Made by a program: the position numbers and the translations under genes. The notes below the pieces were generated by a model. That model saw only the letters and a program-made list of their open reading frames with translations, searched no databases and had not been told where the DNA came from. Below, in pieces: positions 3,528 to 64,000 of a stretch of 64,000 nt of DNA. This DNA is from Polychytrium aggregatum (Eukaryota > Chytridiomycota > Chytridiomycetes > Polychytriales): contig NW_026516317.1 in NCBI RefSeq assembly GCF_025602895.1, forward strand, positions 62,001 to 126,000, given 5' to 3'. The first letter of the stretch is position 1. Every line of letters starts with the position of its first letter.

Positions 3528-3640
3528 GCACTGCGACCGGTGATCTTCACTCGGAGGTGATCTGTTCTATTTCTTATGGCATAGCTTGACGCATGCCATC
3601 GCATACGACGCCGACAAATGGGTTGTGGGCAGGTGTACCA
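3528..3640 (+). mobile_element. Fanzor transposon remnant 1 (3' end only)
   Basis: Short relic of the 3' end of a Fanzor element. It aligns with the end of the intact Fanzor genes: a GCGACCGGTGATCTTCACTC stretch (last Fanzor codons), TGATCTGTTCTATTTCTT (sequence across and after the stop) and the downstream GCTTGACGC hairpin region. A 7-bp perfect stem, ATGGCAT at 3576-3582 and ATGCCAT at 3593-3599, encloses a 10-nt loop. The following CATCGCATACGACGCCGACA also matches the remnant near 50.7 kb, so homology runs to about 3634. I see no terminal inverted repeat. No upstream nuclease sequence is recognisable. Confidence 0.75.
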
Positions 3641-10670: not shown

Positions 10671-13014
10671 TCCCATGTCCGCACACCCGTTGCTACTTGT
10701 CATATGCAAAACTCCAACCACTCCCATTTCGCTCTCCGTCGGTATCGTTATTGCCACCGTCGGCCTTGTGGTGTTGCCGTCACATCCAGGGCTCGTGTCC
10801 ACCACTCACTTCCCGACTTGCGCTTCGCATCCCACCCCGCACTCGTCCCGATCGGCTTGGTCGCGACCATCAACCGCACTCCCCCAGAACAACCTTGTCC
10901 TGAGCGTCTTGAACGCCATGCCGTCCAAACGCGAGGCCATCCACTTCATCGATCGCTTCTTTGATCCCCCGACCTCCAAGGACTCCAAAAAAACCATCCC
11001 ACAGTACCGTCGTCGTCCTTCCGGCCCGGGTGCTACTTCGGCCATCCACGACCACATCGGCCTCGTCCTGCTCGACTCCAAGCTTTCGGACACACATCTG
11101 GCCACCTTTGCCACCACCTTGAACCACCTGCACCGCCTCGACCTCAAGCCCATCGTCGTTGTCGACGACTGGTGGGCTGGCAACCACGAGGCTGCGGCCA
11201 GGCTGCGGCTGAAGAAATCCAAACTGCAGGAGAAGCTTTCGGACACCTTCCGTGTCGTCGATGCCATCGAAGCTGGCGGCGGCCGTGCTCTAGCGGCTTA
11301 CAACGGCGTCGCAAACCCAAGCTTCTCTGTTGAGGTACGCCGTTGCGGCCTGGTTCGCCTCGCTGTCCCTCTGTTGTGACGTGTATGCTTGTCGGTCTTG
11401 CCTCAGTCGGACGACCTCCTTGGCCGCATCGCCCATCTGTGCCAAGGACTGCTGGCGATCGCTGCCGATCCCCGAGATCACAGCAGTCACCATCGAGTCC
11501 CACAATAGCTGTCAGGTGCCTCCTGTGCAAGCGGCCCCGGTTTCCTCCACCATCAGGACGAGTGCCGTTGATTGCCACATACACCAGCTTCTGTCGTTCC
11601 GACCCAGTGACGCCTTTGCTTCCGTTTCCCACCAGTCTCGGCTCCAGCCAATCGAAACGGCTTTCCGCCTCGGACATATACCCGTCATTGCTGCCTTCTC
11701 GGGATCAGCCGACGGAGGGGCCGACGATGCCAACCAGGCTCAAGTCCCTCCCCACCAGATCCTTATTTCGCTGGCCAACGATCTATCCAACCGACCCACA
11801 CTTGGCGCTCCTGTCAAGCTGATCGTCGTAAACGAGCGCGGCGGCTTGCGCAACGAGCATCACGGCACCCTCGGATTCATCAACATCCAGGAAGAGTTTG
11901 AAGACCTGCAATCCGAATACATTGCCAGGCTCAAGAAGCAGACCGCCCGCCCAGCCTTCACCAAGGAACGCTCCGACAATCTGCGCCATCTGGATCTTCG
12001 CCAGCAGCTCGAGGAGCTGCGAATCGTCCGCAAGGTTCTCGCCGCCCTTCCATCTTCGGCCTCGGCCGTGATCACGTCGGCTGCCTCCAGCGCCGTCCTG
12101 ATATCCAATCTTATCACCGACAAGCCCGCTTCGTCTACGAGCACCAGTCCGCACTCGTTCTTCATCCAGGGCTATGCCCATCCTGCCGCCTCCCTCGTCG
12201 TCCGCCAGAACCGACATTCCCATGGCAAGGTTACTCTCGAAGAAATCTACCATCCGACCGTTCTCCGATCTGGTCTGAGCATCAGCGAGCACTACGACCT
12301 CTCCACTGTCGACATCCCCAAGCTTACCAAATTGCTCGAGGCCTCCTTTGGACGAAAGCTGATCGAGGACGAGTTCTGGGAGCGTATGCGCAACCACCTT
12401 GATTCCGTCATCGTGGCCGGCGACTACGACGGTGCCTCAATTGTGACCCGCGAGTACGACCCGTTGGCCGCCGACTCGCTTAGCCAAGAGCCTGACCAGC
12501 CCCGCAAGGACCCTATTCACTACCTGGACAAGTTCGCAGTCGCCCCCACGAGCCAGGGTATCGGTGTAGCCGATATTCTGTGGAAACGTTTGAAGCGCAA
12601 CTACAAGAACCTGTCCTGGCGCAGTCGGGCCGCCAACCCGGTGAACAAGTGGTGGGTAGAGCGAAAGAGCGCTCGGCTGGACATCACTTTCAACCTGGAC
12701 CCCTGCTCGCCTGCAGCTTCATGCTTGTGCTTAGTTGTTCGAGTTGACCCGTCGCGGCGGCTTGATTTTGCCCTCTCCTCGTCGCCCGCGCATTATTGAA
12801 CAGCGCCCTGCCCCATCGCTCATCGTCAGCCTTCTATATCGTCAGGTACTTTGAGAGATCCGAGGGCAATCTGCGCCTTCCCGGCGATTACTGGATTCTG
12901 TTCTGGTATGGCACCGAAGGCGTTCATCGCATGGCAGCCTACACTCGCGCGGCCCTGGCCATCACGGCCTCGTTCGCCCCCGTCAAGACACAGTCTTCCA
13001 AGTCAAAGGGTTAG
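10671..13014 (+). CDS. Amino-acid N-acetyltransferase (N-acetylglutamate synthase, Arg2-type)
   Basis: First step of mitochondrial arginine biosynthesis: acetyl-CoA plus glutamate to N-acetylglutamate. First exon ends at 11334; second starts at 11407 (SDDLLGRIAHLC); a large exon runs from about 11648 to 12651; the last is 12846..13014. Kinase-like domain: VLNAMPSKREAIHFIDRFF, GLVLLDSKL, LGHIPVIAAF, LIVVNERGGL. GNAT domain at the C-terminus: YLDKFAVAPTSQGIGVADILW, WRSRAANPVNKW joined across the last intron to YFERSEGN, and WILFWYGTEGVHRMA. These are Arg2/NAGS signatures. The reading frame is open back to 10129, so the start is uncertain; 10671 is one candidate Met giving a presequence-like N-terminus. 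The donor of exon 2 is not resolved (before 11505). Arginine feedback is known for the family but not visible here. Confidence 0.83.
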
Positions 13015-23425: not shown

Positions 23426-23660
23426 GATGCATTTTGAACGGGACATCTCTCGTTTCCACCGGGCGGCATTGTCGTTGATGGCCTCCGTCCAACAGACCAT
23501 TTGCAATGAAACGGATCGCCTCGGGAGCCTCCGAGTGACGACATCGAGTCTGTCTCTGGTCTCCACAATCGCCGTGCACACAGCGATCATGTTGCGCCGG
23601 ATTGACGCCGCAATTGCCCGCTGAACGACAGCAGCCGGGATTGTAGCATCGCAGCGCAGC
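23426..23660 (-). mobile_element. Fanzor transposon remnant 2, with 3' terminal inverted repeat
   Basis: Minus-strand relic. In element orientation it begins within the RuvC-III end of a Fanzor gene (reads like IRRNMIAVCTAIVE...VVTRRLPR, cf. DVNAARNMITVCRSIVE...VFTRRLPK in the intact copies), continues through the post-stop region with the same hairpin position (ATGGTCT and AGGCCAT stem; plus strand 23478-23500), then a GGAAACG block and a degraded terminal repeat, GAACGGGACA on the plus strand near 23435-23447. The catalytic Asp codon region is mutated, so it is dead. Confidence 0.8.
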
Positions 23661-33611: not shown

Positions 33612-35684
33612 TCACGACACAGTTTCGTTTGCATCCCCATGCGCTCCATCGCTCGAATCCTCTCGTGCGATCTCGCTTGCGGATTCAGACTCGGATTCGC
33701 TTGTGTCGTCACTTGAATAGTCCGTTTGGCCAGCATCGTGGGCCGCAGAACCCGAGTCGCTGTCCAGGGGACCCGCTTGAAGCCTGCGAGCCTCCTCCAG
33801 GATCGCGATAATGCTTTCATTTTTGCGACTCTTTGCCAGCGCCAGCGCTTCTCCGCCAACTTGGTCGATTCGCACACCTCGGCTGATCAAGCGGCGGATC
33901 ATGTCCTCATCGGACTCTTCGACAGCCGAGACAAGGAGCGAACCGTCGTCGGTGCCAAGGTTGAAGGGATTCGGCGAGTTCAAGGTGAGGAGATCCAGCA
34001 TGAACAGGTCTCGGTTCCGGATCGCGGCCTTGACGGCTTGCCGACCGACGTAGCCATCGAGGGACATGGAGCACTTTTTGATCAGGAACAGGACGACCTG
34101 GACCCGCTTTTGGGCAACCGCGGTGATGAGGGCATCGTGGGCGTACATCGTATTGAAGCTGGCGCCGTCCCTTCGCAGCTGATCCAAGGCCCTGATATTG
34201 GAGGCTTGGGCAAGCCGCACCATGTGGCGGCGATTCAGCGATGCTTCGTCCTGGCCTTCCAGCGCGACGGCTTCTGTCGTCGTCTCGGGTGGGTTCGGGC
34301 CCGCGGTTGTCGTCAGCGTGGAGTCAGGCTCTCGCTCGGATTCGTCGGCATGCTCATCCTCGGCATTTGCGCTGGCAAAACTTGGAGGCGGGACTGCATG
34401 GTCAGGCATATTGGCAACTAGAAGCTCGATAATGCCCGTGCGTCCGTATTTCTTGGCAAAGGTGATGGCCTCGGCGCCATACCTGAGGAGACTGACGCCG
34501 GCGGTCAGAAAGTATATGACGATATCTTCGTATCCTTTGACGATGGCGTCGATCATGGCCTCGGCTCCATCCCGTCCACGAACATCGACGCCGAGACGGA
34601 CGAGGACCTCGATCGTGTGAATGTCGCGCTTCTCGGCTGCTGTTCGGAGGCAGTACCGCCCGTCTTTGCGAGGGTCGAACCCGGTTCCGACAACGATCGG
34701 GGCGTCCGGGATCTGGATATAGGCCCCTGTCAGGATGTTGAGGTAGTAGCCGCGGTCGTTGAGGTACTTTACAATTTCGACAAGCCCGTCGCGGGTGGCA
34801 GTCCTCAGCAGAGCTTCGAAGCGCAAATCGTCCACGGGGGACTCGAACGAAACCAGCAGCTCCTGGAAGAGCTCGTCTTGCTTGCTGACGAGGGCCTCCG
34901 AGAGGGCCAGAATACCGACTTCGGCGACTGGGTAGCCCATCAGGATGAGCCATCGCACGCTCTCCAGGTCGCAGTCGGCAACGGCATTCAGGAGAAGCCC
35001 GCCATTGTCCCGCTGCAGGTTGTAGCGGCCCTCGGAGATCAGCAGGTGGAACATGTCAAAGTCTCTCGTGCGGAGGGCGACTTGGACGGCGGCCTGGCCA
35101 ACGTAGTGAACCAGGTCGCAGAGCGGCAGGAGATACAGGGCAACGTCCCGATGGCCAGCCTCCAGGGCCTTGACGAGCGCTTCGCCGCCGTGCAGACCGT
35201 TGGGTCGGAAGCCCTCGTCGACCAGCGTCGCTATGGTTTCGAAAGCCCCCTGCGAGGCCGCATTGACGAGGCACCGGCCTCCATGTCGATACAGAGGCGC
35301 ACCTTTGTGGATGAGCAATCGGACGAGCGGTGGCGATGTGTTTTGGGTGCGGTTGACGATTTCAAAGGCCTCGTTGGCGTTGAAGAGCTCGTTGTCGGCG
35401 GCTTTGAGGATGCTGATGGCCAGCCAGCTCATCCGGTTTTCCAGCGAAAGGGTCAGCAGCTCGGAAGGCGGGGTGGGCAGGCGCTGGAACAGCAGCGGCT
35501 CGAGCGAAGCCAGGGCATCCAGCTGGCCGAACTGGCTCTTCTCCAGCAACAGCGGTCCGTTGTCCAGCGCCCGGCGGATGTGTCTGCAACTTCGGGCGAG
35601 CTCCCTCAGTTGGGCAGGAGTCAGGTATCTGGCGATTTCGACCAGAACCTCGCTGGGAATTCGGTATATGTGCATTGCGTCCAT
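33612..35684 (-). CDS. F-box / ankyrin-repeat protein
   Basis: Single exon, about 690 residues from the chosen Met at 35684 (MDAMHIYRIP). An F-box-like N-terminus (IPSEVLVEIARYLTPAQLRELARSCRHIRRAL) is followed by about 14 ankyrin-like units with PLVRLLIHKGAPLYRHGGRCLVNAASQGAFETI-type helices, many ending AVEYGR/KEG-like turns (e.g. TIEVLVRLGVDVRGRDGAEAMIDAIVKG, IIELLVANM, IRRLISRGVRIDQVGGEALALAKSRKNESIIAIL). A Ser/Asp/Glu-rich tail ends the protein. F-box proteins recruit substrates to SCF ubiquitin ligases, the repeats presumably bind the substrate. The frame is open to 35987, giving a longer N-terminus (basic, with a hydrophobic piece) if the upstream Met is used; I prefer 35684 because the F-box then starts the protein. 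A G run of ten lies just upstream. Confidence 0.85.
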   Translation of the reverse strand: MDAMHIYRIPSEVLVEIARYLTPAQLRELARSCRHIRRALDNGPLLLEKSQFGQLDALASLEPLLFQRLPTPPSELLTLSLENRMSWLAISILKAADNELFNANEAFEIVNRTQNTSPPLVRLLIHKGAPLYRHGGRCLVNAASQGAFETIATLVDEGFRPNGLHGGEALVKALEAGHRDVALYLLPLCDLVHYVGQAAVQVALRTRDFDMFHLLISEGRYNLQRDNGGLLLNAVADCDLESVRWLILMGYPVAEVGILALSEALVSKQDELFQELLVSFESPVDDLRFEALLRTATRDGLVEIVKYLNDRGYYLNILTGAYIQIPDAPIVVGTGFDPRKDGRYCLRTAAEKRDIHTIEVLVRLGVDVRGRDGAEAMIDAIVKGYEDIVIYFLTAGVSLLRYGAEAITFAKKYGRTGIIELLVANMPDHAVPPPSFASANAEDEHADESEREPDSTLTTTAGPNPPETTTEAVALEGQDEASLNRRHMVRLAQASNIRALDQLRRDGASFNTMYAHDALITAVAQKRVQVVLFLIKKCSMSLDGYVGRQAVKAAIRNRDLFMLDLLTLNSPNPFNLGTDDGSLLVSAVEESDEDMIRRLISRGVRIDQVGGEALALAKSRKNESIIAILEEARRLQAGPLDSDSGSAAHDAGQTDYSSDDTSESESESASEIAREDSSDGAHGDANETVS

Positions 35685-38205
35685 CGAAGCCAGATGTGAA
35701 GGCTGGCCGACCAGTGCCGGGGGGGGGGAGGGACCGGCGAAGAGCCAGGGGAAGCCGAGACGGAACCACATCCGTTCGGGCGCCAGCAGACTCATCCGTT
35801 TCGGGCGACCACGAACCATGAACGTGCTCACCACGAACCAGGCCGATCGCACAGCCAGCAGCGGGTGTCCCAGAGCCGCCACCACACCGCAGCCGCGGGA
35901 CGCTCTTCCTCGCCGAGCGACAGAATCTTGTGAGCGAAGCGGATTCATGCTGGCACAGGCTGGTCCATGCGGTAGATTATCGGCCAAACGGTCGGCCAGG
36001 GCAGCCGCGAGGTGCTACCGCAGTATTATGCGAACGCAAGTGATATACAGACGCACCAGCAGTGCAAGCTCCCGACCGGCGGTGGCGGCTGGCGAATCCA
36101 GTGGCCCTTGGGATCTGCACATCGGCCAGGGGTGTCAATAACAGGCATCGATCGGCTGGCACGGCACTCTGCGTTGCATACCCGAGCTACTCACTCATCG
36201 GGAAGTTGGGCCATTCCGACAGCACCAGCGCCTCGCAAATGCTCGATCCGAGAGCGGATCAGGCTGAGCTGGCGCAGAAACGGCAGACACCGGCTCCGGA
36301 ATCGATCGATGTGATTGTGGTGTCGACGGAGCAGGAACGATGCCAGTGCCTGGCTTTGGACACAGCTTCGACCGGCGGTTGGTGGTCTTGCCATCGACAT
36401 CGAGGCATCCGGGTAGTTGCTGCGTGGATCACTCACGCGGTAATCGGCTGCTTGCCGAAACCACCGGGATTCCATCCCATCCGAGCCTAGGACGCCCCTT
36501 TCTGCAGCAAGAAGCTGCTTTGATGCAACCATTTCTGGGATTGTTTCAACCAGGGCTGCAGCAAACTCGAGAATCTGTGAAATGGAAGCCACAAGGACGA
36601 TAAGAATGCAGCGACGCAGCCTACGGCCACCAGGCTCGGAATCGCAAGGTGGCAGGATGAAAGGGAATAGAGAGGCTGCCTCGGGTGCTTGTGCTGTACC
36701 TGATGCGCTTTGTCGACATCGGGACCAGAGTCATCGGTCCGATACACCGATGTCAGCAACTGACGGTGGCGATGGTGGTGGTGTTAGAGGCAGTTGCCAT
36801 GCTGTAGAATTGTCCATCGACGAGGGCATCATCATCGTGCTGATTGTGTTTGATCATCATGCGCATCGGCAATCCGCCGGCTTACCCTCAGCTGCCATGC
36901 TTCGAAGCGCTCTTGCGGCCTCAAACCACACAGACTGTTGCGGGCCAGAATCACATTCCCAGGATCCGACACATAGTCCATTCGGGATTTGTGCAGCTGA
37001 AACAGCACCACCGGATGTCGTCGCGGCGGAATCTTCTGCGCATTCGGAGTCGGTGTCTTTGCTGCCAACGGATTCGATTGTCTCGAGCGAATGACGCTTG
37101 CGTTGAGTGGATATCGCATCGCTGATGCACGGCCGATCTCAGGCGACCCCGAATCGTCTCCGGGAAGATGGCGCTGCGAGGGAGGCCCGGGGCGCTTCAT
37201 CCTCTGACCCGACATTTTGAGCTTAACCGAGATCGGGGTCTGCAGTCGATTTCCAGTGCCGGACAGAGGACCTTCTGACTGGCTCTGTGCACCGATGCGT
37301 CCCAAGGCACTGGGCCCGGGTTCGGATATGCTCTCGCCCAGGTCGTCGCAGCGCATACGATCTGGATCATCCACATCCATACTGTCTCCATCTCGCCGCT
37401 GAGGCGTCTCGGCATCGCTTGGTTGCGCTGGGACAGCACGCTGGCTTCTCCGTTGTCCGCCTCGGGCTCCTCGTCGGCATCGCCGCAAGCGGGGGGTTCC
37501 AGCCCCAACGCCGGGCTTGGTATCAAGATGGGTTTTGTGAAGATGGCTTCTAAGATGGCACGCAGAGGTCAGGTAGCTCCGATGCACCCGGGCGAGGTAC
37601 TCGGCCGAATTCAGATGGAGCTGGATGTCATACTAAACGGTTGCAATCCGGATCAAGCGTCAGAGGAGCTGCACCAGCCCTTCGTTGTCGATAACAGCAG
37701 CGCAGATCACCAAGCTAAGATGCGATCGCGCAAGCACGAGTCGTCACTGATGGGATAGAGTCTTACAGTTCGGGTCTGGTTGGCAATCTGCAGAGCAGCA
37801 GTGGAAGCGAAGCCACATGCAGCACATTCCACATCCTGAGCAGGGAGGAGCGCAAGACAGCCTGGGCATGGATAGAGGCCGTGGCGGCAGGCAGGGCTGC
37901 AGTCGACGAACATGCCAATGCACAATGTCAGCATCGAGGCGAAAAGATCGATGGTGCTGCCGACGACAGGAGCTCAGCGGGATCAGCACCCACCATCGCA
38001 GCGAGAGGAAGACACTGGCGCCGCTTTGAGCCGGGGAGAACTGGACGACCCTCTCATCAAGCAGAGCGGCAAATGCAAGCTCGTGGTGCTGGCAGGCCGG
38101 ATGCGGACATAGAAGCCGGACCATGTCGTCGCAGCGAGGGGCAGCGATGCAGATCAAGAGGAAACCCGGCAGTGGGCGATGCGGAGTCCAAGAAAGCCTC
38201 GCCGT
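35685..38205. other. Gene-poor stretch left of Fanzor transposon 1
   Basis: No recognisable gene over 2.5 kb. A minus-strand frame 37587-36832 (251 codons, includes SMDVDDPDRMRCDDLGESISEPGPSALG) has a protein-like composition but no start context, homology or splice support that I can judge. The element is inserted at a TA at 38206-38207. Confidence 0.35.
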
Positions 38206-38207
38206 TA

Positions 38208-38233
38208 CAGCGTATCCACTAAAAAACGGGACA
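38208..38233 (+). repeat. Left terminal inverted repeat, copy 1
   Basis: 26 bp following the TA target; ends in AAAAAACGGGACA, shared with the right end. Confidence 0.85.
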
Positions 38234-38290
38234 CCCAGGGTTTTGACCATTGATCAATATTTTGTTACCCAAAACCATCGCGCGCTGGCC

Positions 38291-39095
38291 ATGACCATTC
38301 GCCACACATCCGATTTTCGCACCGCCGCATTGCGATGCTACGACCTCATCCATAGCCTGCGTAAGGTCGCCTCCATATTCAGTGTATCCAAGAGCACCAT
38401 CCATCGATGGCACCGAGGATGCAAGCTGGATGACCCATCCCGGGTCCCAGCTCGCAGATCCACTTTCTTCGAGCAGGCATGTCCAGTCATTCGCACCCTG
38501 ATTGAACAGGACCCGTTCCAGACTGGTCCTGTGTTGCGATGCAAGCTCGAGTCCATCCTCCAGAGGAAAGTTTCACTCTCACTCTGCCACACTGCCCTAC
38601 AGCGAGCAGGTCTCTCACACAAGAGTGCAACACACCTCTACAAGTCCAAGCGACTGGATGAGCGAGTGGCACAGTTCAGGAACCAGGTCCGCTCCATCGA
38701 CCCGCGGCGATTCGTTTTTGTCGATGAGACGGGGATCAGGAGATCCATTTTCCCTCTTTACGGATACTCACCGAAGGGTTCCGCTTCGCCAGCGCAATCA
38801 CATGAAACACAAGTCTGTCTCGGCTGCATTTGCCATCAACCACTCTGGTGTGCTGCATCGGATGTACATCCCCACATCATTCAAGACACACTCGATGGTC
38901 GAGTTCTTTGAGCGAGCGAGCTTCCCAGACGACTCTGTGATTGTAATGGACAATGTCAGCATGCACAAGACAATGGCTGTCCTGGACTGCATCGAGCGCC
39001 GAGGATGGTCAATGATCTTCACCCCACCTGCCTCGCCCGACTTCAATCCCATCGAGAACTTCTTTGGGGTTGAGTCCCCACCGCTTTGGGGTTGA
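38291..39095 (+). pseudogene. Tc1/IS630-like DD34E transposase, frameshifted
   Basis: Starts at ATG 38291 with a helix-turn-helix-rich N-terminus (FRTAALRCYDLIHSLRKVASIF, VSKSTIHRWHRG), then the DDE catalytic domain: first Asp in FVFVDETGIRRS, second in VIVMDNVSMHK, Glu in PDFNPIENFFG, with 34 residues between the second Asp and the Glu. Compared with copy 2, two bases are missing at about 38779-38790 (after GYSPKG), so the catalytic domain is split over two frames; the second frame ends at 39095. In both copies the protein ends soon after IENFFG, where relatives have another helix. Copy 1 therefore cannot make an active transposase. Confidence 0.88.
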
Positions 39096-39365: not shown

Positions 39366-41738
39366 ATGCCTCCGAAGCGTAAGGGTACCGGTGATGGCCA
39401 GCCTCGGCCACCCAGGCCCAAGAAAGCCAAGTCACAGTCGGAGCCTGTCTCTTGTTCGTATTCTGATCCCACGCATGCTTGGTCGTCTGTTGCTCCGTCG
39501 CTCACCACCACTGCTTCTGCAGATCCAATGGATGTCGATCCCACCGAGCCTGGTCCATCTACTTCCTCGAGTACCGGCAAGCGATGTCGCCAGTGCGATG
39601 GTACCGATCACGAACGTTGCAACACCAACAAGTGTCCCGAATACCGGCCCCTCAAGAGCTCTGTCGTCCCACTCGTGGATGGAAGGTCATCCGCCCCTCA
39701 GTTCAGCTGCTTCAAGCAGACGATGGATGGCTGTTGTCTCAATCCCGCTCTCCGCGACAAGATCCAGGCCACCGTCGAGGCCATGACCCAGATCCAGTTC
39801 GAGGCATCCAGGCTGCTCAACCTGCACATCCTCCGGTGCATCGAGCAGGATATTCCCGTCCCCGTCATCTCCAGGGCCACCCCTGCTTTCATCCGCCAGT
39901 GCTTTAAGATCGTCCAGGACGGTGCCCTCTCCCCGACAGGGGACAATGAGAAATACAACGAGCATCTGGTCGCTTCCTTTCGCGACTATCAGACCACTCG
40001 GCACGCAGACCTGCCTCCGGCCCCTTGTCTGCCTGATGGTGCTCACAGTCAGCTTCTCACCCTGGCTGTCAATGCCTATGCTACCAACTGCACCACCCAC
40101 CTCAACCTGGCCTACTGGAGACTCCTTCGTCGCTTCTGTGCTGCCGTCTTCCCAGACAACAAACACAAGCACGACGCCATCGAGGTCTGTCTTGAGCACT
40201 TCGAGAAACCAGGGCAGACACCACCCAAGGCCGATATCGAGTTCCTCTATCCCGAGTTTGGCCACATCCTGGACGAGTTTCGGTACAGCAACGACCAGGA
40301 CCGCTTCCGGGCCCTCCATCGCCTCTCACACCATGTGGGAATCCTCGCCCGAGACAAGATGGTCGACAATGTCCACAAGTGGATCGACTGTGACATGCCC
40401 GCCCTCCGAGTCACCGAGTTGCAGCGCCAGGCCAAGCTGGACAAGCTCACTACCCAAGGCATTCTCTCCGACGACAAGAGGTTCACCACGGCCAAGTCTG
40501 AGCTCGGCACCACCAAGTCCAAGATCAACAAGCTGGCATCCAGGATCAACTGGGCACTGAAGCAGCTCGCCGTCGACACTCCTCCGGCCGTGTGCACGAT
40601 GGTTCCTCTATGCACTGCAAGGGCCAAGTATGTCAAGATTGACACGGTCACTCTCTGGGAACTCCTGGGTCCAAAGAAGCGCCTTGGCCTCACCCGGGAC
40701 ATGCTCAAGGAAGAAGGTGAGGACGGTGTCAACAACCAGGATCGTCTCTGGCGCAGTTGCTTCAAGCTGCGTAGTTCCCTCTTCCAAGAGCGGGACGTGA
40801 ACAAGAAGCTGTTCAACTACGAGATCAGCACCGATGGCATTGGATGCACCATCGGTCTCGTCAAGTTTCTGCCTCGAACCGATCGCACCGAGACCATCGA
40901 GCCTCCTCCGACTGCCGAGCAACGCATCCAGACCCACATCGGCAACCCAGACCCCAACCGCACCACTTGGATTGGAATCGATCCTGGAGTCGGCTCCATC
41001 TTCACGGCGGTCATCCAAGCACCGGGCCACCAAGACGAGGTGGTCTCGTTCTCCAATGGCCACTACCAGCACATGTGTGGCCATACGTCCAACACCAAGT
41101 GGCACAACACCATGAAGTATCGACTCAGCATCGAGACCTGGATGTCGACCACCCCCTCGCCCAAGGTGTCGTCCTCGGAGGCTTTCAAGATCCATCTCAC
41201 CCATGTCCTGCAACCGGAGCTGCGAGTGCAGCTCGATTTCCACCTTGGCAAGAAGGCCCGTCACCATCGCTTCACGGGCCACAAGAGGCGCCAAGTGGCC
41301 GTCGACAGGATGTGCAAGGCCGTCCTGAAGCACGCCCCGATACGGACCGATGTGGTGATCGCCTTTGGCAATGCGTCATGGCGACAGGGCAAGGGCTATG
41401 CATCCAGCCCTCGGAGGCAGCGGTTTGCTCGGTACTTTGAGCAATTCGAGCACCACCGACGCCGTCCCAATCACCATCATGGAAGCGTCAAGGTGGCCTC
41501 GACGAACGAGTTCAACACCTCGCAGGTGTGCTCCAAGTGCCTGGAGCCAGTTCGGTTGGAAGGACTCGATGCGCCCAGTATTGCGAATTCCCACTTTGTC
41601 AGGAGCTGCAAGAATCCCAGCTGCCAGACAGTGTGGAATCGCGACGTCAATGCGGCGCGCAACATGATCACAGTATGCAGGTCGATTGTGGAGATCGGAG
41701 AGCGACCGGCGGTCTTCACTCGGAGGCTGCCAAAGTGA
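39366..41738 (+). CDS. Fanzor (TnpB-like RuvC) RNA-guided nuclease, copy 1, full length
   Basis: 790 residues, no introns, unlike the host genes around it. N-terminus: basic, NLS-like RPPRPKKAKS, then a C-x2-C-x4-H-x2-C-x4-C cluster (Cys74, Cys77, His82, Cys85, Cys90). The middle is helical. The C-terminal part is RuvC: RuvC-I IGIDPGVGSIFTAV (Asp539); the RuvC-II strand VVIAFGNASW (665-672) has no Glu, and a Glu instead sits at 715 in STNEFNTSQVC, just before a CxxC..CxxxxC zinc finger (722, 725, 748, 753); RuvC-III RDVNAARNM (Asp760). This shifted Glu is the arrangement described for Fanzor proteins versus TnpB. Fanzors cut DNA guided by an RNA encoded at the element's 3' end (family knowledge). 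All catalytic positions are intact, so it is probably functional. Confidence 0.92.
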   Translation: MPPKRKGTGDGQPRPPRPKKAKSQSEPVSCSYSDPTHAWSSVAPSLTTTASADPMDVDPTEPGPSTSSSTGKRCRQCDGTDHERCNTNKCPEYRPLKSSVVPLVDGRSSAPQFSCFKQTMDGCCLNPALRDKIQATVEAMTQIQFEASRLLNLHILRCIEQDIPVPVISRATPAFIRQCFKIVQDGALSPTGDNEKYNEHLVASFRDYQTTRHADLPPAPCLPDGAHSQLLTLAVNAYATNCTTHLNLAYWRLLRRFCAAVFPDNKHKHDAIEVCLEHFEKPGQTPPKADIEFLYPEFGHILDEFRYSNDQDRFRALHRLSHHVGILARDKMVDNVHKWIDCDMPALRVTELQRQAKLDKLTTQGILSDDKRFTTAKSELGTTKSKINKLASRINWALKQLAVDTPPAVCTMVPLCTARAKYVKIDTVTLWELLGPKKRLGLTRDMLKEEGEDGVNNQDRLWRSCFKLRSSLFQERDVNKKLFNYEISTDGIGCTIGLVKFLPRTDRTETIEPPPTAEQRIQTHIGNPDPNRTTWIGIDPGVGSIFTAVIQAPGHQDEVVSFSNGHYQHMCGHTSNTKWHNTMKYRLSIETWMSTTPSPKVSSSEAFKIHLTHVLQPELRVQLDFHLGKKARHHRFTGHKRRQVAVDRMCKAVLKHAPIRTDVVIAFGNASWRQGKGYASSPRRQRFARYFEQFEHHRRRPNHHHGSVKVASTNEFNTSQVCSKCLEPVRLEGLDAPSIANSHFVRSCKNPSCQTVWNRDVNAARNMITVCRSIVEIGERPAVFTRRLPK

Positions 41739-41810
41739 TCTGTTTTATTTCTTGTGGCTTTGCTTGACGCAAGCACAGCACATACTACATGTTCATGGAA
41801 ACGGCTATAT
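41739..41810 (+). ncRNA. Candidate guide-RNA scaffold 3' of Fanzor, copy 1
   Basis: Noncoding tail between the Fanzor stop and the right terminal repeat, nearly identical in copy 2. It contains a hairpin at 41754-41779: GCT-T-TGCTTG, loop ACG, CAAGCA-C-AGC. The same place in the three remnants also forms a hairpin with different stem bases. In known Fanzor and TnpB systems the guide RNA comes from this part of the element and may extend upstream into the coding end and across the transposon end. Transcript boundaries are not determined. Confidence 0.5.
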
Positions 41811-41836
41811 TGTCCCGTTTTTTTCTGAATAAAGTG
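41811..41836 (-). repeat. Right terminal inverted repeat, copy 1
   Basis: 26 bp; minus strand reads CACTTTATTCAGAAAAAAAC then GGGACA; followed by TA. Confidence 0.85.
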
Positions 41837-41838
41837 TA

Positions 41839-42216
41839 TGGGAAATGGTCGCTGGCAGCATCTCGTCCTATCGGCCGGATAGAAGCATATCCCAGTATTT
41901 CGCCACGGGCAGCTTGCCGATCGATACCGACGTCTGCTCTGCGAGAGCCTGCCTTCGCAGACCCACCACAGGCTGCAGTCAATCACCAAGACAATCGGCC
42001 TTGGCTGATTGGTCTTGGAGCGCATTCTCGCAGCGATACAGCAGCTCATCTGCGTGGCCAGATATTTTGGGGCCACTGATGATGTGAAAGGCTTCAGGCA
42101 CATCGCCGCAGAACCACAACCAGCAAGCGGCCTCTGTTCATCGCATCTACAGCCCGCTCGCTTCCAAGCAAGGAACCCCGATACATTCCCGAGCCCAGGC
42201 TTGGACGTCGCCAGCG
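41839..42216. other. Spacer between transposon 1 and the RasGAP gene
   Basis: No gene seen; contains the putative promoter of the RasGAP gene. The transposon therefore sits about 380 bp upstream of that start. Confidence 0.5.
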
Positions 42217-50619: not shown

Positions 50620-51375
50620 TGGGGGGTTGCGATAAAGGTGCTCTTGACACATGAACAAATGAGACAGCCATATGTCAGCGTTGTATTCGATGGCATGTGT
50701 CGTATTCGATGGCATGTGTCCAACTCGGCCATATGCAATAACACAGATCACCTCCCGGTGAAGACTTCTGGTCGCTCTCCACAATCGACCTGTACACAGT
50801 ACAGTCGGTCCAGAAAAACGAGACAGTTCCTTCCTGGCTTCAGATGTCTGACTGACTGTAGGTCCAGTGAGCAAGCCGTGAGATTGTTTCCCGTCCTGGT
50901 TGGCAATCTCTCTGTGTAGTGCATCCACTCCACGCTCTGGACAGTTCCATACTAACTCGATATCAAGATGCTCGGCCTTCTCGAGTCGCTTGGTTTCCCG
51001 ACAATGTGAGCATACCTGGGATGTGTTGAACTCGTTCACCGAGCACACATGGATCTTGGAGACGGATTGGTCTGGTGGTCGTCTCTGGTGGTGGTGGAAT
51101 TGCTCGAAGTACTTGGCGAACCTGAGTCTCCTGGGACTGGATGCATATCCCTTCCCCTGTTTCCAGGATGCATTCCCAAAGGCAATCACCACTTCGGTCT
51201 CCTTGGCCATACTTGCTTGGCCATGAATACGATGAGTGGGTGGGTGTATTCAGGTTCCAGAAAAAGCACAGTCATAGCTCAAAACGGGGCTGTCCCATTT
51301 CATTTTGGAAACGCTGTAATCACGTTGCGCTCTGTATTGACATCGCAATTCCGCACCGTGCAGCTGCTGGGAACG
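50620..51375 (-). mobile_element. Fanzor transposon remnant 3 (divergent, rearranged)
   Basis: Minus-strand relic of a divergent Fanzor. From 51190 downwards it reads VVIAFGNASWKQGKGYASSPRR, VNEFNTSQVCSHC (alternative Glu and first zinc-finger pair kept), then loses frame, and near 50810-50760 matches the last codons (CRSIVE...VFTRR region) and the post-stop sequence with its hairpin (plus strand 50709-50732). The RuvC-III-like piece (DVNTERNV) is found separately at about 51313-51375, upstream in element orientation, so the relic is scrambled or nested. An 18-bp tandem duplication, CATGCCATCGAATAC-type, follows the hairpin. Inactive. Confidence 0.8.
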
Positions 51376-60813: not shown

Positions 60814-60885
60814 AATATAGCCGTTTCCATGAACAGTAGTATGTGCTGTGCTTGCGTCAAGCAAAGCCACAAGAAATAAAACAGA
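60814..60885 (-). ncRNA. Candidate guide-RNA scaffold 3' of Fanzor, copy 2
   Basis: Noncoding tail with the same hairpin (60846-60870 on the plus strand) and only scattered differences from copy 1. Function inferred from position and structure. Confidence 0.5.
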
Positions 60886-63258
60886 TCACTTTGGCAGCCT
60901 CCGAGTGAAGACCGCCGGTCGCTCTCCGATCTCCACAATCGACCTGCATACTGTGATCATGTTGCGCGCCGCATTGACGTCGCGATTCCACACTGTCCGG
61001 CAGCTGGGATTCTTGCAGCTCCTGACAAAGTGGGAATTCGCAATACTGGGCGCTTCCAGATCCCTCAGCCGAGAGGGCATCAGGCAGTTGGAGCACACCT
61101 GCGAGGTGTTGAACTCGTTCGTTGAGGCTACCTTGACGCTTCCATGATGGTGATTGGGACGGCGTCGGTGGTGCTCGAATTGCTCAAAGTACCGAGCAAA
61201 CCGCTGCCTCCGAGGGCTGGATGCATAGCCCTTGCCTTGCCGCCATGACGCATTGCCAAAGGCGATCACCACATCGGTCCGTATCGGGGCGTGCTTCAGG
61301 ACGGCCTTGCACATCTTGTCGACGGCCACTTGGCGCCTCTTGTGGCCCGTGAAGCGATGGTGACGGGCCTTCTTGCCAAGGTGGAAGTCGAGCTGCACTC
61401 GCAGCTCCGGTTGCAGGACATGGGCGAGATGGACCTTGAAGGCCTCCGAGGACGACACCTTGGGCGAGGGGGTGGTCGACATCCAGGTCTCGATGCTGAG
61501 TCGATACTTCATGGTGTTGTGCCACTCAGTATTGGACGTATGGCCACACATTTGCTGGTAGTGGCCATTCGAGAATGAGACCACCTCGTCTTGGTGGCCC
61601 GGTGCTTGGATGACCGCCGTGAAGATGGAGCCGACTCCAGGATCGATGCCAATCCAAGTGGTCTTGTCGGGGTCTGGGCTGCCGATGTGGGCCTGGATGC
61701 GCTGCTCGGCAGTCGGAGGAGGCTCGGAGGTCTCGGTGCGATCGGTTCGAGGCAGAAACTTGACGAGACCGATGGTGCATCCAATGCCATCGGTGCTGAT
61801 CTCGTAGTTGAACAGCTTGTGATTGATATCCCGGTCACGGAAGAGGGAACTACGCAGCTTGAAGCAACTGCGCCAGAGACGATCCTGGTTGTTGACACCG
61901 TCCTCACCTTCTTCCTTGAGCATGTCCCGGGTGAGGCCGAGACGATGTTCGGAGTCAAGGAGATCCCAGAGAGTGGCCGTGTCGATCTTGACATACTTGG
62001 CCGTGGCAGTGCACAGAGGAACCATCGTGCACACGGCCGGAGGAGTGTCGACGGCGAGCTGCTTCAGTGCCCAGTTGATCCTGGATGCCAGCTTGTTGAT
62101 CTTGGACTTGGTGGTGCCGAGCTCAGACTTGGCCGTGGTGAACCTCTTGTCGTCGGAGAGAATGCCTTGGGTAGTGAGCTTGTCCAGCTTGGCCTGGCGC
62201 TGCAGCTCGGTGACTCGGAGGGCGGGCATGTCACAGTCGATCCACTTGTGGACATTGTCGACCATCTTGTCTCGGGCGAGGATTCCCACATGGTGTGAGA
62301 GGCGATGGAGGGCCCGGAAGCGGTCCTGGTCGCTGCTGTACCGAAACTCGTCCAGGACGTGGCCAAAGTCTGGATAGAGGAACTCGAGATCGGCCTTGGG
62401 TGGAGTCGAGTCCGGTTTCTCGAAGAGCTCGAGACAGGCCTCGATGGCTTCGTGCTTATGCTTGTTGGCTGGGAAGACGGCAGCGCAGAAGCGGCGAAGG
62501 AGTCGCCAGTAGGCCAGGTCGAGGTGGGTGGTGCAGTTGGTGGCATAGGCATTGACAGCCAGTGTGAGAAGCTGACTGTGAGCACCATCAGGTAGACGAG
62601 GGGCCGGAGGCAGGTCTGCGTGCCGAGTGGTCTGGTAGTCGCGAAAGGAAGCGACCAGATGCTCGTTGTATTTCTTGGTCTCCCTGGCCGTCGAGAGGGC
62701 ACCGTCCTGGACGATCTTAAAGCACTGGCGGATGAAAGCAGGGGTGGCCCTGGAGATGACGGGGACGGGAATATCCTGCTCGATGCACCGGAGGATGTGC
62801 AGGTTGAGCAGCCTGGATGCCTCGAACTGGATCTGGGTCATGGCCTCGACGGTGGCCTGGATCTTGTCGCGGAGAGCGGGATTGAGACAACAGCCATCCA
62901 TCGTCTGCTTGAAGCAGCTGAACTGAGGGGCGGATGACCTTCCATCCACGAGAGGGACGACAGAACTCTTGAGGGGGTGATATTCGGGACATTTGCTAGT
63001 GTTGCAGCGTTCGTGATCGGTGCCATCGCACTGGCGACATCGCTTGCCGGTACTCGAGGAAGTAGATGGACCAGGCTCGGTGGGATCGACATCCATTGGA
63101 TCTGCAGAAGCAGTGGTGGTGAGCGACGGAGCAACAGACGACCAAGCATGCGTGGGGTCAGAATACGAACCAGAGACAGGCTCCGACTGTGACTTGGCTT
63201 TCTTGGGCCTGGGTGGCCGAGGCTGGCCATCACCGGTACCCTTACGCTTCGGAGGCAT
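60886..63258 (-). CDS. Fanzor (TnpB-like RuvC) RNA-guided nuclease, copy 2, full length
   Basis: 790 residues, intronless. It is about 94% identical to copy 1 by my comparison, with the same length and no frame-breaking change; most differences are in the middle (for example the PANKHKHEAIEACLELFEKPDST stretch) and in the zinc finger (CSNCLMPSRLRDLEAPS versus CSKCLEPVRLEGLDAPS). RuvC-I Asp539 (IGIDPGVGS), the alternative Glu715 (STNEFNTSQVC), the four zinc Cys and RuvC-III Asp760 are retained. The TATA box and 5' flank match copy 1. That both copies stay open over 2.4 kb while bearing this many changes suggests recent activity or selection for the nuclease. Confidence 0.92.
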   Translation of the reverse strand: MPPKRKGTGDGQPRPPRPKKAKSQSEPVSGSYSDPTHAWSSVAPSLTTTASADPMDVDPTEPGPSTSSSTGKRCRQCDGTDHERCNTSKCPEYHPLKSSVVPLVDGRSSAPQFSCFKQTMDGCCLNPALRDKIQATVEAMTQIQFEASRLLNLHILRCIEQDIPVPVISRATPAFIRQCFKIVQDGALSTARETKKYNEHLVASFRDYQTTRHADLPPAPRLPDGAHSQLLTLAVNAYATNCTTHLDLAYWRLLRRFCAAVFPANKHKHEAIEACLELFEKPDSTPPKADLEFLYPDFGHVLDEFRYSSDQDRFRALHRLSHHVGILARDKMVDNVHKWIDCDMPALRVTELQRQAKLDKLTTQGILSDDKRFTTAKSELGTTKSKINKLASRINWALKQLAVDTPPAVCTMVPLCTATAKYVKIDTATLWDLLDSEHRLGLTRDMLKEEGEDGVNNQDRLWRSCFKLRSSLFRDRDINHKLFNYEISTDGIGCTIGLVKFLPRTDRTETSEPPPTAEQRIQAHIGSPDPDKTTWIGIDPGVGSIFTAVIQAPGHQDEVVSFSNGHYQQMCGHTSNTEWHNTMKYRLSIETWMSTTPSPKVSSSEAFKVHLAHVLQPELRVQLDFHLGKKARHHRFTGHKRRQVAVDKMCKAVLKHAPIRTDVVIAFGNASWRQGKGYASSPRRQRFARYFEQFEHHRRRPNHHHGSVKVASTNEFNTSQVCSNCLMPSRLRDLEAPSIANSHFVRSCKNPSCRTVWNRDVNAARNMITVCRSIVEIGERPAVFTRRLPK

Positions 63259-63388: not shown

Positions 63389-64000
63389 TTATACCCGAGA
63401 GCAGGAGCCCGTCGTTGCGGGCTGGTTGGGGAAGTGACCCTGTTCAAAAATCGCCGAGAGGTTCAAGCCAGGGATGTGAACGTGAGAACGGCGGCTTGAT
63501 TGGGGGACTAAACCCCAAATCGGTGGGGACTCAATCCCAAAGAAGTTCTCGATGGGATTGAAGTCGGGCGAGGCAGGTGGGGTGAAGATCACTGACCATC
63601 CTCGGCGCTCGATGCAGTCCAAGACAGCCCTTGTCTTGTGCATGCTGACATTGTCCATTACAATCACAGAGTCATCTGGGAAGCTCGCTCGCTCAAAGAA
63701 CTCGACCATCGAGTGTGTCTTGAATGATGTGGGGATGTACATGCGATGCAGCACACCAGAGTGGTTGATGGCAAATGCAGCCGAGACAGACTTGTGCTTC
63801 ATATGATTGCGCTGACGGAGTGGGACGCCCTTCGGTGAGTATCCGTAAAGAGGGAAAATGGATCTCCTGATCCCTGTCTCATCGACAAAAACGAATCGCC
63901 GCGGGTCGATGGAGCGGACCTGGTCCCTGAACTGTGCCACTCGCTCATCCAGTCGCTTGGACTTGTAGAGGTGTGTTGCACTCTTGTGTGAGAGACCTGC
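63389..64000 (-). CDS. Tc1/IS630-like DD34E transposase, copy 2, 5' part outside window
   Basis: The frame is uninterrupted from the window edge to 63389. It keeps FVFVDETGIRRS, then GYSPKGVPLRQRNHMKHKSVSA (the point where copy 1 lost two bases), VIVMDNVSMHK and FTPPASPDFNPIENFFG. Catalytic spacing D..34..E is typical of Tc1-like enzymes. After IENFFG it runs through the TTTGGGG-type repeats into a 50-residue tail unlike family members (SPPIWG, NQPATTGSCSRV), so the true C-terminus may be lost. Possible source of transposition for both copies, if the missing N-terminus is intact. Confidence 0.82.
   Translation of the reverse strand, partial: AGLSHKSATHLYKSKRLDERVAQFRDQVRSIDPRRFVFVDETGIRRSIFPLYGYSPKGVPLRQRNHMKHKSVSAAFAINHSGVLHRMYIPTSFKTHSMVEFFERASFPDDSVIVMDNVSMHKTRAVLDCIERRGWSVIFTPPASPDFNPIENFFGIESPPIWGLVPQSSRRSHVHIPGLNLSAIFEQGHFPNQPATTGSCSRV

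Follow-up and report, generated by a model that had tools for sequence, protein, structure and literature searches.

The hairpin that follows the stop codon of the Fanzor gene is, with a probability that we put at roughly 0.78, the first stem (SL1) of an omega-RNA scaffold belonging to a Fanzor1-type nuclease that is carried on a Tc1/mariner-type transposon. It lies in a 64-kb window, the whole stretch of DNA analyzed, on contig C19; the genome searched is the 64.7-Mb assembly.

The window contains two intact copies of the gene, A and B, and three remnants. The register shared across the family is ATGGCWT/AWGCCAT, in which the alignment places SL1 at 41755..41777 (plus strand) in copy A and at 60847..60869 (minus strand) in copy B. 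The intact copies form six pairs with a bulge, which in copy A are T41755-A41777, G41756-C41776, G41757-C41774, C41758-G41773, T41759-A41772 and T41760-A41771, with A41775 bulged. The corresponding stems are ATGGCAT/ATGCCAT in remnant 1 (3576..3599, plus strand), which is ghost-like with no Fanzor sequence found upstream, ATGGTCT/AGGCCAT in remnant 2 (23478..23500, minus strand) and ATGGC/GCCAT in remnant 3 (50709..50732, minus strand).

The arms that the initial annotation quoted for all five hairpins are present letter for letter, but its claim that they occupy an aligned position fails for the intact copies. There it had quoted TGCTTG/CAAGCA, formed in copy A by 41761-41766 with 41770-41775 and made of identical letters in copy B, which is a different register from the stem of the remnants. 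In the alignment the 5' arm of this stem falls on the loop of the hairpin in the remnants, which puts half of the proposed GYTKGAC loop core inside the stem of the intact copies. The core itself fits the five loci of the window, while its K position is an A in 26 of 92 family rows.

The transposon and its nuclease gene

The carrier of the Fanzor gene is a Tc1/mariner-type transposon with its own DDE_3 transposase. The alignment of copies A and B delimits an element of 3.6 kb, from about 38205 at the left end to 41838 at the right, in the order left end, transposase, Fanzor, right end. Both ends are inverted repeats (CAG...AAAAAACGGGACA) with TA flanks. The left TA target-site duplication (38206..38207) makes up, together with T38205, the trinucleotide TTA, a candidate TAM, and is followed by the left terminal inverted repeat (TIR; 38208..38233, plus strand), as defined by the comparison of the two copies. 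The right TIR (41811-41836) and the TA duplication at 41837-41838 form the end of the element (41811..41838, plus strand), which is also the predicted end of the scaffold.

The N-terminal part of the transposase, which is helix-turn-helix-like (38207..38908, plus strand; HTH_23 E 0.002, below the Pfam cut-off), is present in copy A, where a break interrupts the frame farther downstream. In copy B around 246 bp of this part are gone, and the DDE_3 catalytic part is found at 63392..63940 on the minus strand (PF13358, E 8.4e-22). The hallmarks of the Tc1/mariner type, namely a DDE transposase, TIRs and a TA duplication, are all present.

The Fanzor1-like ORF is intact in both copies and encodes 790 amino acids, at 39366..41738 (plus strand) in copy A and at 60886..63258 (minus strand) in copy B; the two proteins are 94% identical, with a dN/dS of 0.32. 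Both contain PF07282, the Cas12f1-like TNB domain, above cut-off (E 4.3e-9 and 8.3e-9, correspondingly), which points to a TnpB-related nuclease of the TNB/RuvC type, and the NCBIfam guided_TnpB model matches copy A with E 1e-5, below its cut-off. The segments GIDPG, TNEFNTS and WNRDVNAARN, spotted by eye in the translation, are candidates for the motifs expected to hold the catalytic D, the alternative E and the D. Of 29 family-A loci, 21 are free of in-frame stops across their final ~540 codons, and the median dN/dS relative to copy A is 0.305 (18 family-A loci); judged by these comparisons, the nuclease evolves under purifying selection. An AlphaFold2 model of the protein, built from two sequences, reached a pLDDT of 31 and was set aside.

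Also in the window are an F-box and ankyrin-repeat protein (33612-35987, minus strand; Ank_2 E 8.6e-25) and an N-acetylglutamate synthase-type acetyltransferase domain (11330-12799, plus strand; E 2.2e-26).

Ghost elements, the right end and the flanks

Used as a DNA query, the 3' end of copy A gives at least 41 genome matches (40 of 745 candidates scored), while remnants 1, 2 and 3 give at least 40 each (40 of 570, 40 of 468 and 40 of 44 candidates scored, correspondingly). Four extra DNA queries yielded additional diverged copies, and all family counts are lower bounds that include alleles. From the listed matches 60 loci were sampled, mostly one per apparent allelic pair. No relatives of the family were found in viral contigs. 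Contig C35 repeats the series of copies on C19 with an offset that hardly varies, which suggests that both haplotypes are in the assembly; even so, the Fanzor copy on C35 (L002) shares only 95% protein identity with copy A over codons 246-790.

Elements related to remnant 1 measure ~276 bp and have TIRs of their own. In the 28 ghost loci L011-L038, some of which are allelic pairs, tblastn found no upstream Fanzor sequence within 1.4-1.5 kb, and downstream-side Fanzor fragments are present in two of the 28. The ghosts and the Fanzor element have in common a block of 85-87 nt (41702-41788) with 82.8-90.8% identity, which runs from ~34 nt before the stop codon to 53 nt after it; beyond this block the ghosts continue with a second stem and then the TIR. 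The ghosts, which have no nuclease gene, retain the 3' region of the Fanzor element. A search with ten joined flank pairs revealed no empty sites for ghosts among the matches listed.

In one locus (L175, on C22) the left end of a family-A element begins 18 bp after a ghost. Another (L174, on C375) has the same left flank and left part of the ghost, followed by the scaffold and right end of family A. The two loci are probably alleles, and L174 looks like a chimeric ghost produced by recombination inside the common block.

The second stem, SL2 (41790..41831, plus strand), pairs AAACGG (41799-41804) with CCGTTT of the right TIR (41815-41820) and has an outer TGTTCA/TGAATA in copy A. Its arms are AAACGG/CCGTTT in family A and AAATGGG/CCCATTT in ghosts, each fitting its own TIR, and the 5' arms of the two cannot be aligned with each other. 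A scan of 106 distinct 3' ends recognized the TIR arm in 80, the fixed search window having overlooked some arms that are present (e.g. in L034). The central pair in the 78 ends with at least five pairs is C-G in 33, T-A in 32, T-G in 10, C-A in 2 and G-G in 1; these counts lean towards pairing, since the 5' arm was picked for best pairing, and they are not independent, since many family-A rows are near-identical.

The right end, 103 nt from the stop codon, is followed in family A by TA and then by variable sequence (35 distinct flanks), the first part of which, at 41839..41853 (plus strand), is the predicted guide, its length being taken from the 14-15 nt of SpuFz1. On the left side, the base before the TA is T in all eight distinct family-A sites; for the further family-A copies the left TIR lay outside 11 of the 19 windows examined. 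A ninth site, in L175, reads TCA and is excluded from this count. In ghosts this base is T in 13 and A in 8, which accounts for all 21 usable sites (25 distinct), one of them placed with one-base uncertainty. No such bias is seen at the mirrored right-hand position, with A in 10 of 35 family-A flanks and A or T in 10 of 19 ghosts, and the left-versus-right difference has a Fisher p of 0.0003 in family A and of 0.0003 in ghosts. A transposase should show a symmetric preference at TA. A WTA flank on one side only is the picture that a TAM on the left and a guide on the right would give; TTA, or WTA in ghosts, is a candidate TAM of this Fanzor family. Among ghosts, 8 of 21 have another base in place of the A of the left TA and 1 of 19 in place of that of the right TA (Fisher p 0.02), and the two duplications seem to decay differently.

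The inverted repeats might instead work as DNA, being subterminal transposase-binding sites kept for transposition. The 3' arm of SL2 is the TIR itself, of which the 5' arm could be an inverted copy, ghosts require transposase ends for their mobility, and the near-equal numbers of G-T (46) and A-C (39) mismatches in SL1 mean that a strand signal is absent. However, inspection of the ends reveals no apparent likeness of SL1 to the TIR or the left end, the block common to the ghosts extends back into the end of the ORF, and the flank bias is one-sided where a symmetric one would be expected of a transposase, which makes this explanation improbable. Less probable again is a 3' UTR element of the Fanzor mRNA serving 3'-end formation or stability. 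It would account for the place of the hairpin after the stop codon and for the AATAAA found at 41828-41833 in copy A and in 41 of 43 pattern-matching family-A right ends, but this motif is not conserved in copy B (AATATA) or in most ghosts (GAATACAGTG), and the hairpin is retained by ghosts that have no nuclease gene.

Pairing and covariation in SL1

The family was aligned with MAFFT as 92 distinct 66-nt stretches after the stop codon (alignment A1), with identical rows only being dropped, and the seven pairs of the remnants fall in register in this plain alignment. In the shared register 86.0% of 630 cells pair, versus 13.7-51.6% in slid registers. All seven pairs form in 31 of the 92 rows, six in 39, five in 13 and fewer in 9; pair seven is lost in 34 of 91 rows. 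Both sides have changed in four pairs, a count reached in 111 of 500 shuffles, and the number of further pair types is reached in 112 of 500. The compensating change between T-A and A-T, first seen in remnant 1, is borne out in the family, with UA in 40 rows, AU in 27, UG in 2 and other combinations in 18 (n=87), and, among 72 tips of the tree, amounts to ~4 switches.

The TGCTTG/CAAGCA register pairs in 71.6% of 479 cells, versus at most 48.1% in slid registers, and lies above its own shuffles. As a family-wide helix it was rejected, since one of its six pairs is missing in 40 of 90 rows and another in 66 of 91. Of the 92 rows, 26 have at least five of the seven shared pairs in their minimum-energy fold and 12 have the TGCTTG/CAAGCA register. 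The shared helix is missing from the folds of copies A and B, which prefer the TGCTTG/CAAGCA register, and the lowest-energy fold of copy A is a longer hairpin (41753-41784) that contains it. The folding z-scores have a mean of -0.54 (24 sequences); copies A (-2.3) and B (-3.7) stand out, L082 (-1.9) less so, and the other 21 range from -1.4 to +1.6. No Rfam family matches within the window at gathering score.

An extra hairpin at the end of the ORF, GGCGGTCTTC ACTC GGAGGCTGCC (41708..41731, plus strand), is possible on the basis of energy folds only. It spans the last codons with ten pairs, G-T among them, and ghosts are able to form it too; 9 nt are missing there in many diverged copies, which give a smaller fold. 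It was discarded as a conserved helix, since slid controls covary as well or better; if it forms, SL1 would be preceded by another stem.

Covariation was evaluated against a null in which the columns are independent, each having a rate and composition of its own in simulations along the FastTree tree. The prespecified helix was tested on 95 rows with 2000 simulations and again on 75 rows, with family A as one row. In these runs, as in the pair-6, column and blind-scan tests below, six loci with a broken or rearranged hairpin (L041, L080, L085, L111, L114 and L115), ten allelic or duplicate loci and identical rows were left out. SL1 rises above the phylogenetic background in summed G (p=0.0005 with 95 rows, 0.001 with 75) and in compensatory cells (p=0.014 and 0.001), and its fraction of paired cells is unexceptional on the tree (p=0.11, and 0.06 with family A reduced). 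Slid registers give summed-G values of p 0.024-0.44 and 0.024-0.56, correspondingly. With pair 6 omitted, the compensatory signal disappears (p=0.31), though summed G holds at p=0.007; mainly one T-A/A-T pair with about four switches carries the covariation of SL1. The outcome that the initial annotation said would refute it, covariation no higher than background, is not the one obtained for the prespecified helix. In the trimmed alignment, column 60 has column 73 as its best partner among columns 51-82, and vice versa, ahead of the intervening loop columns. The blind scan covered all 9453 pairs; none from SL1 reaches significance (best E=4.5), and the top-ranking pairs come from a linker whose sequence changes blockwise from one subfamily to another. 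RNAalifold, run on the family alignment, gives no consensus structure. Recombination between subfamilies violates the tree model of the null.

Least probable of all is a functionless palindrome, inherited among related copies and with its paired change spread by gene conversion, which the dominance of a single pair, the existence of inter-subfamily recombinants, the blind scan and the absence of the helix from most energy folds would suit, but which agrees poorly with paired columns that are linked more to each other than to the loop between them and with a summed G that none of the 2000 tree simulations reached.

The reading as a guide-RNA scaffold, put forward in the initial annotation, gains from the covariation, from the retention of the hairpin in ghosts and from a place and pair number like those of Fanzor1 omega-RNAs in the available excerpts of PMC10432273 and PMC11423790; what it loses comes from the one-pair signal, the blind scan and RNAalifold. 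We infer a guide-RNA role of the hairpin on this balance.

The proposed system and its known relatives

In the omega-RNA reading, processing of a transcript would yield a scaffold with its start close to the ORF end, where the block common to the ghosts begins (41702), and its end at the right TA. SL1 would be bound by the Fanzor protein, and the flank adjoining the right end would serve as the guide. The protein-RNA complex would then cut empty sites bearing TTA and the guide sequence, repair after cutting would copy or retain the element, and ghosts could provide further guides in trans.

A broader and rather doubtful possibility is a distributed RNA-guided network in the genome, where several scaffold subfamilies, many of which sit in nuclease-less ghosts that recombine with the coding element, serve one nuclease family, where SL2 co-evolves with the TIR of each subfamily and where the flank requirement differs by subfamily (TTA versus WTA). 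Through the co-evolution of SL2 and TIR, transposase and nuclease would jointly constrain the same bases. The family offers many copies in a single genome, intact ORFs, a transposase encoded by the element itself, a defined right end, the candidate TAM TTA and natural scaffold variants, which suffices for designing direct tests of the joint evolution of scaffold, TIR and nuclease and of the action of ghosts in trans. Among the papers listed on Fanzor covariation, on chytrids and on ghosts or inverted repeats, none is evidently on the present family.

The comparisons that follow draw on excerpts of the cited papers. The TnpB reRNA/omega-RNA of IS200/IS605 and IS607 elements likewise has its scaffold at the right end and the guide outside; its scaffold ends in a pseudoknot (PMC10711439), whereas a stem takes this place in Fanzor1 and in the present proposal. 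PGv-1 and PUl-1 combine a Mariner-like transposase and Fanzor1 within one TA-flanked element (PMC3627910), and the present element shares this Tc/mariner-type arrangement. The excerpt describes them without mention of a guide RNA, whereas a scaffold is proposed here.

The closest similarity is to Spu-1 of Spizellomyces punctatus and its nuclease SpuFz1 (PMC10432273, PMC11423790, PMC3627910), with which the present family shares a Fanzor1-type protein, TIRs and TA duplications, a scaffold, predicted in the present family, between the stop codon and the right end with a first stem of about seven pairs and then a second, ORF-less elements that keep the scaffold, and a short motif in the left flank. 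SL1 has seven pairs in the structures of GtFz1, SpuFz1 and PpFz1, and in SpuFz1 and PpFz1 only SL2 lies between SL1 and the guide (PMC11423790). Here, seven standard pairs form in 31 of 92 rows and six in 39, with six and a bulge in the intact copies. The omega-RNA of SpuFz1 consists of a 75-nt scaffold up to the right inverted repeat and a 14-15-nt guide (PMC10432273), as opposed to the 103 nt between stop codon and right end here, and the flank is TTA or WTA instead of the CATA TAM of Spu-1. The protein is too distant from SpuFz1 for a firm sequence match, with phmmer aligning copy A to 8gkh weakly and at the C-terminus only (E 0.53). No transposase was found within the inverted repeats of Spu-1, according to the excerpt of PMC10432273, unlike in the 3.6-kb element with its DDE_3 transposase. 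The present ghosts match the ghost elements of S. punctatus, of which 134 loci are reported (PMC10432273). The kind of system is already known and, judged by these analogies, the family looks like a new Fanzor1 member near Spu-1 and the ghosts of S. punctatus.
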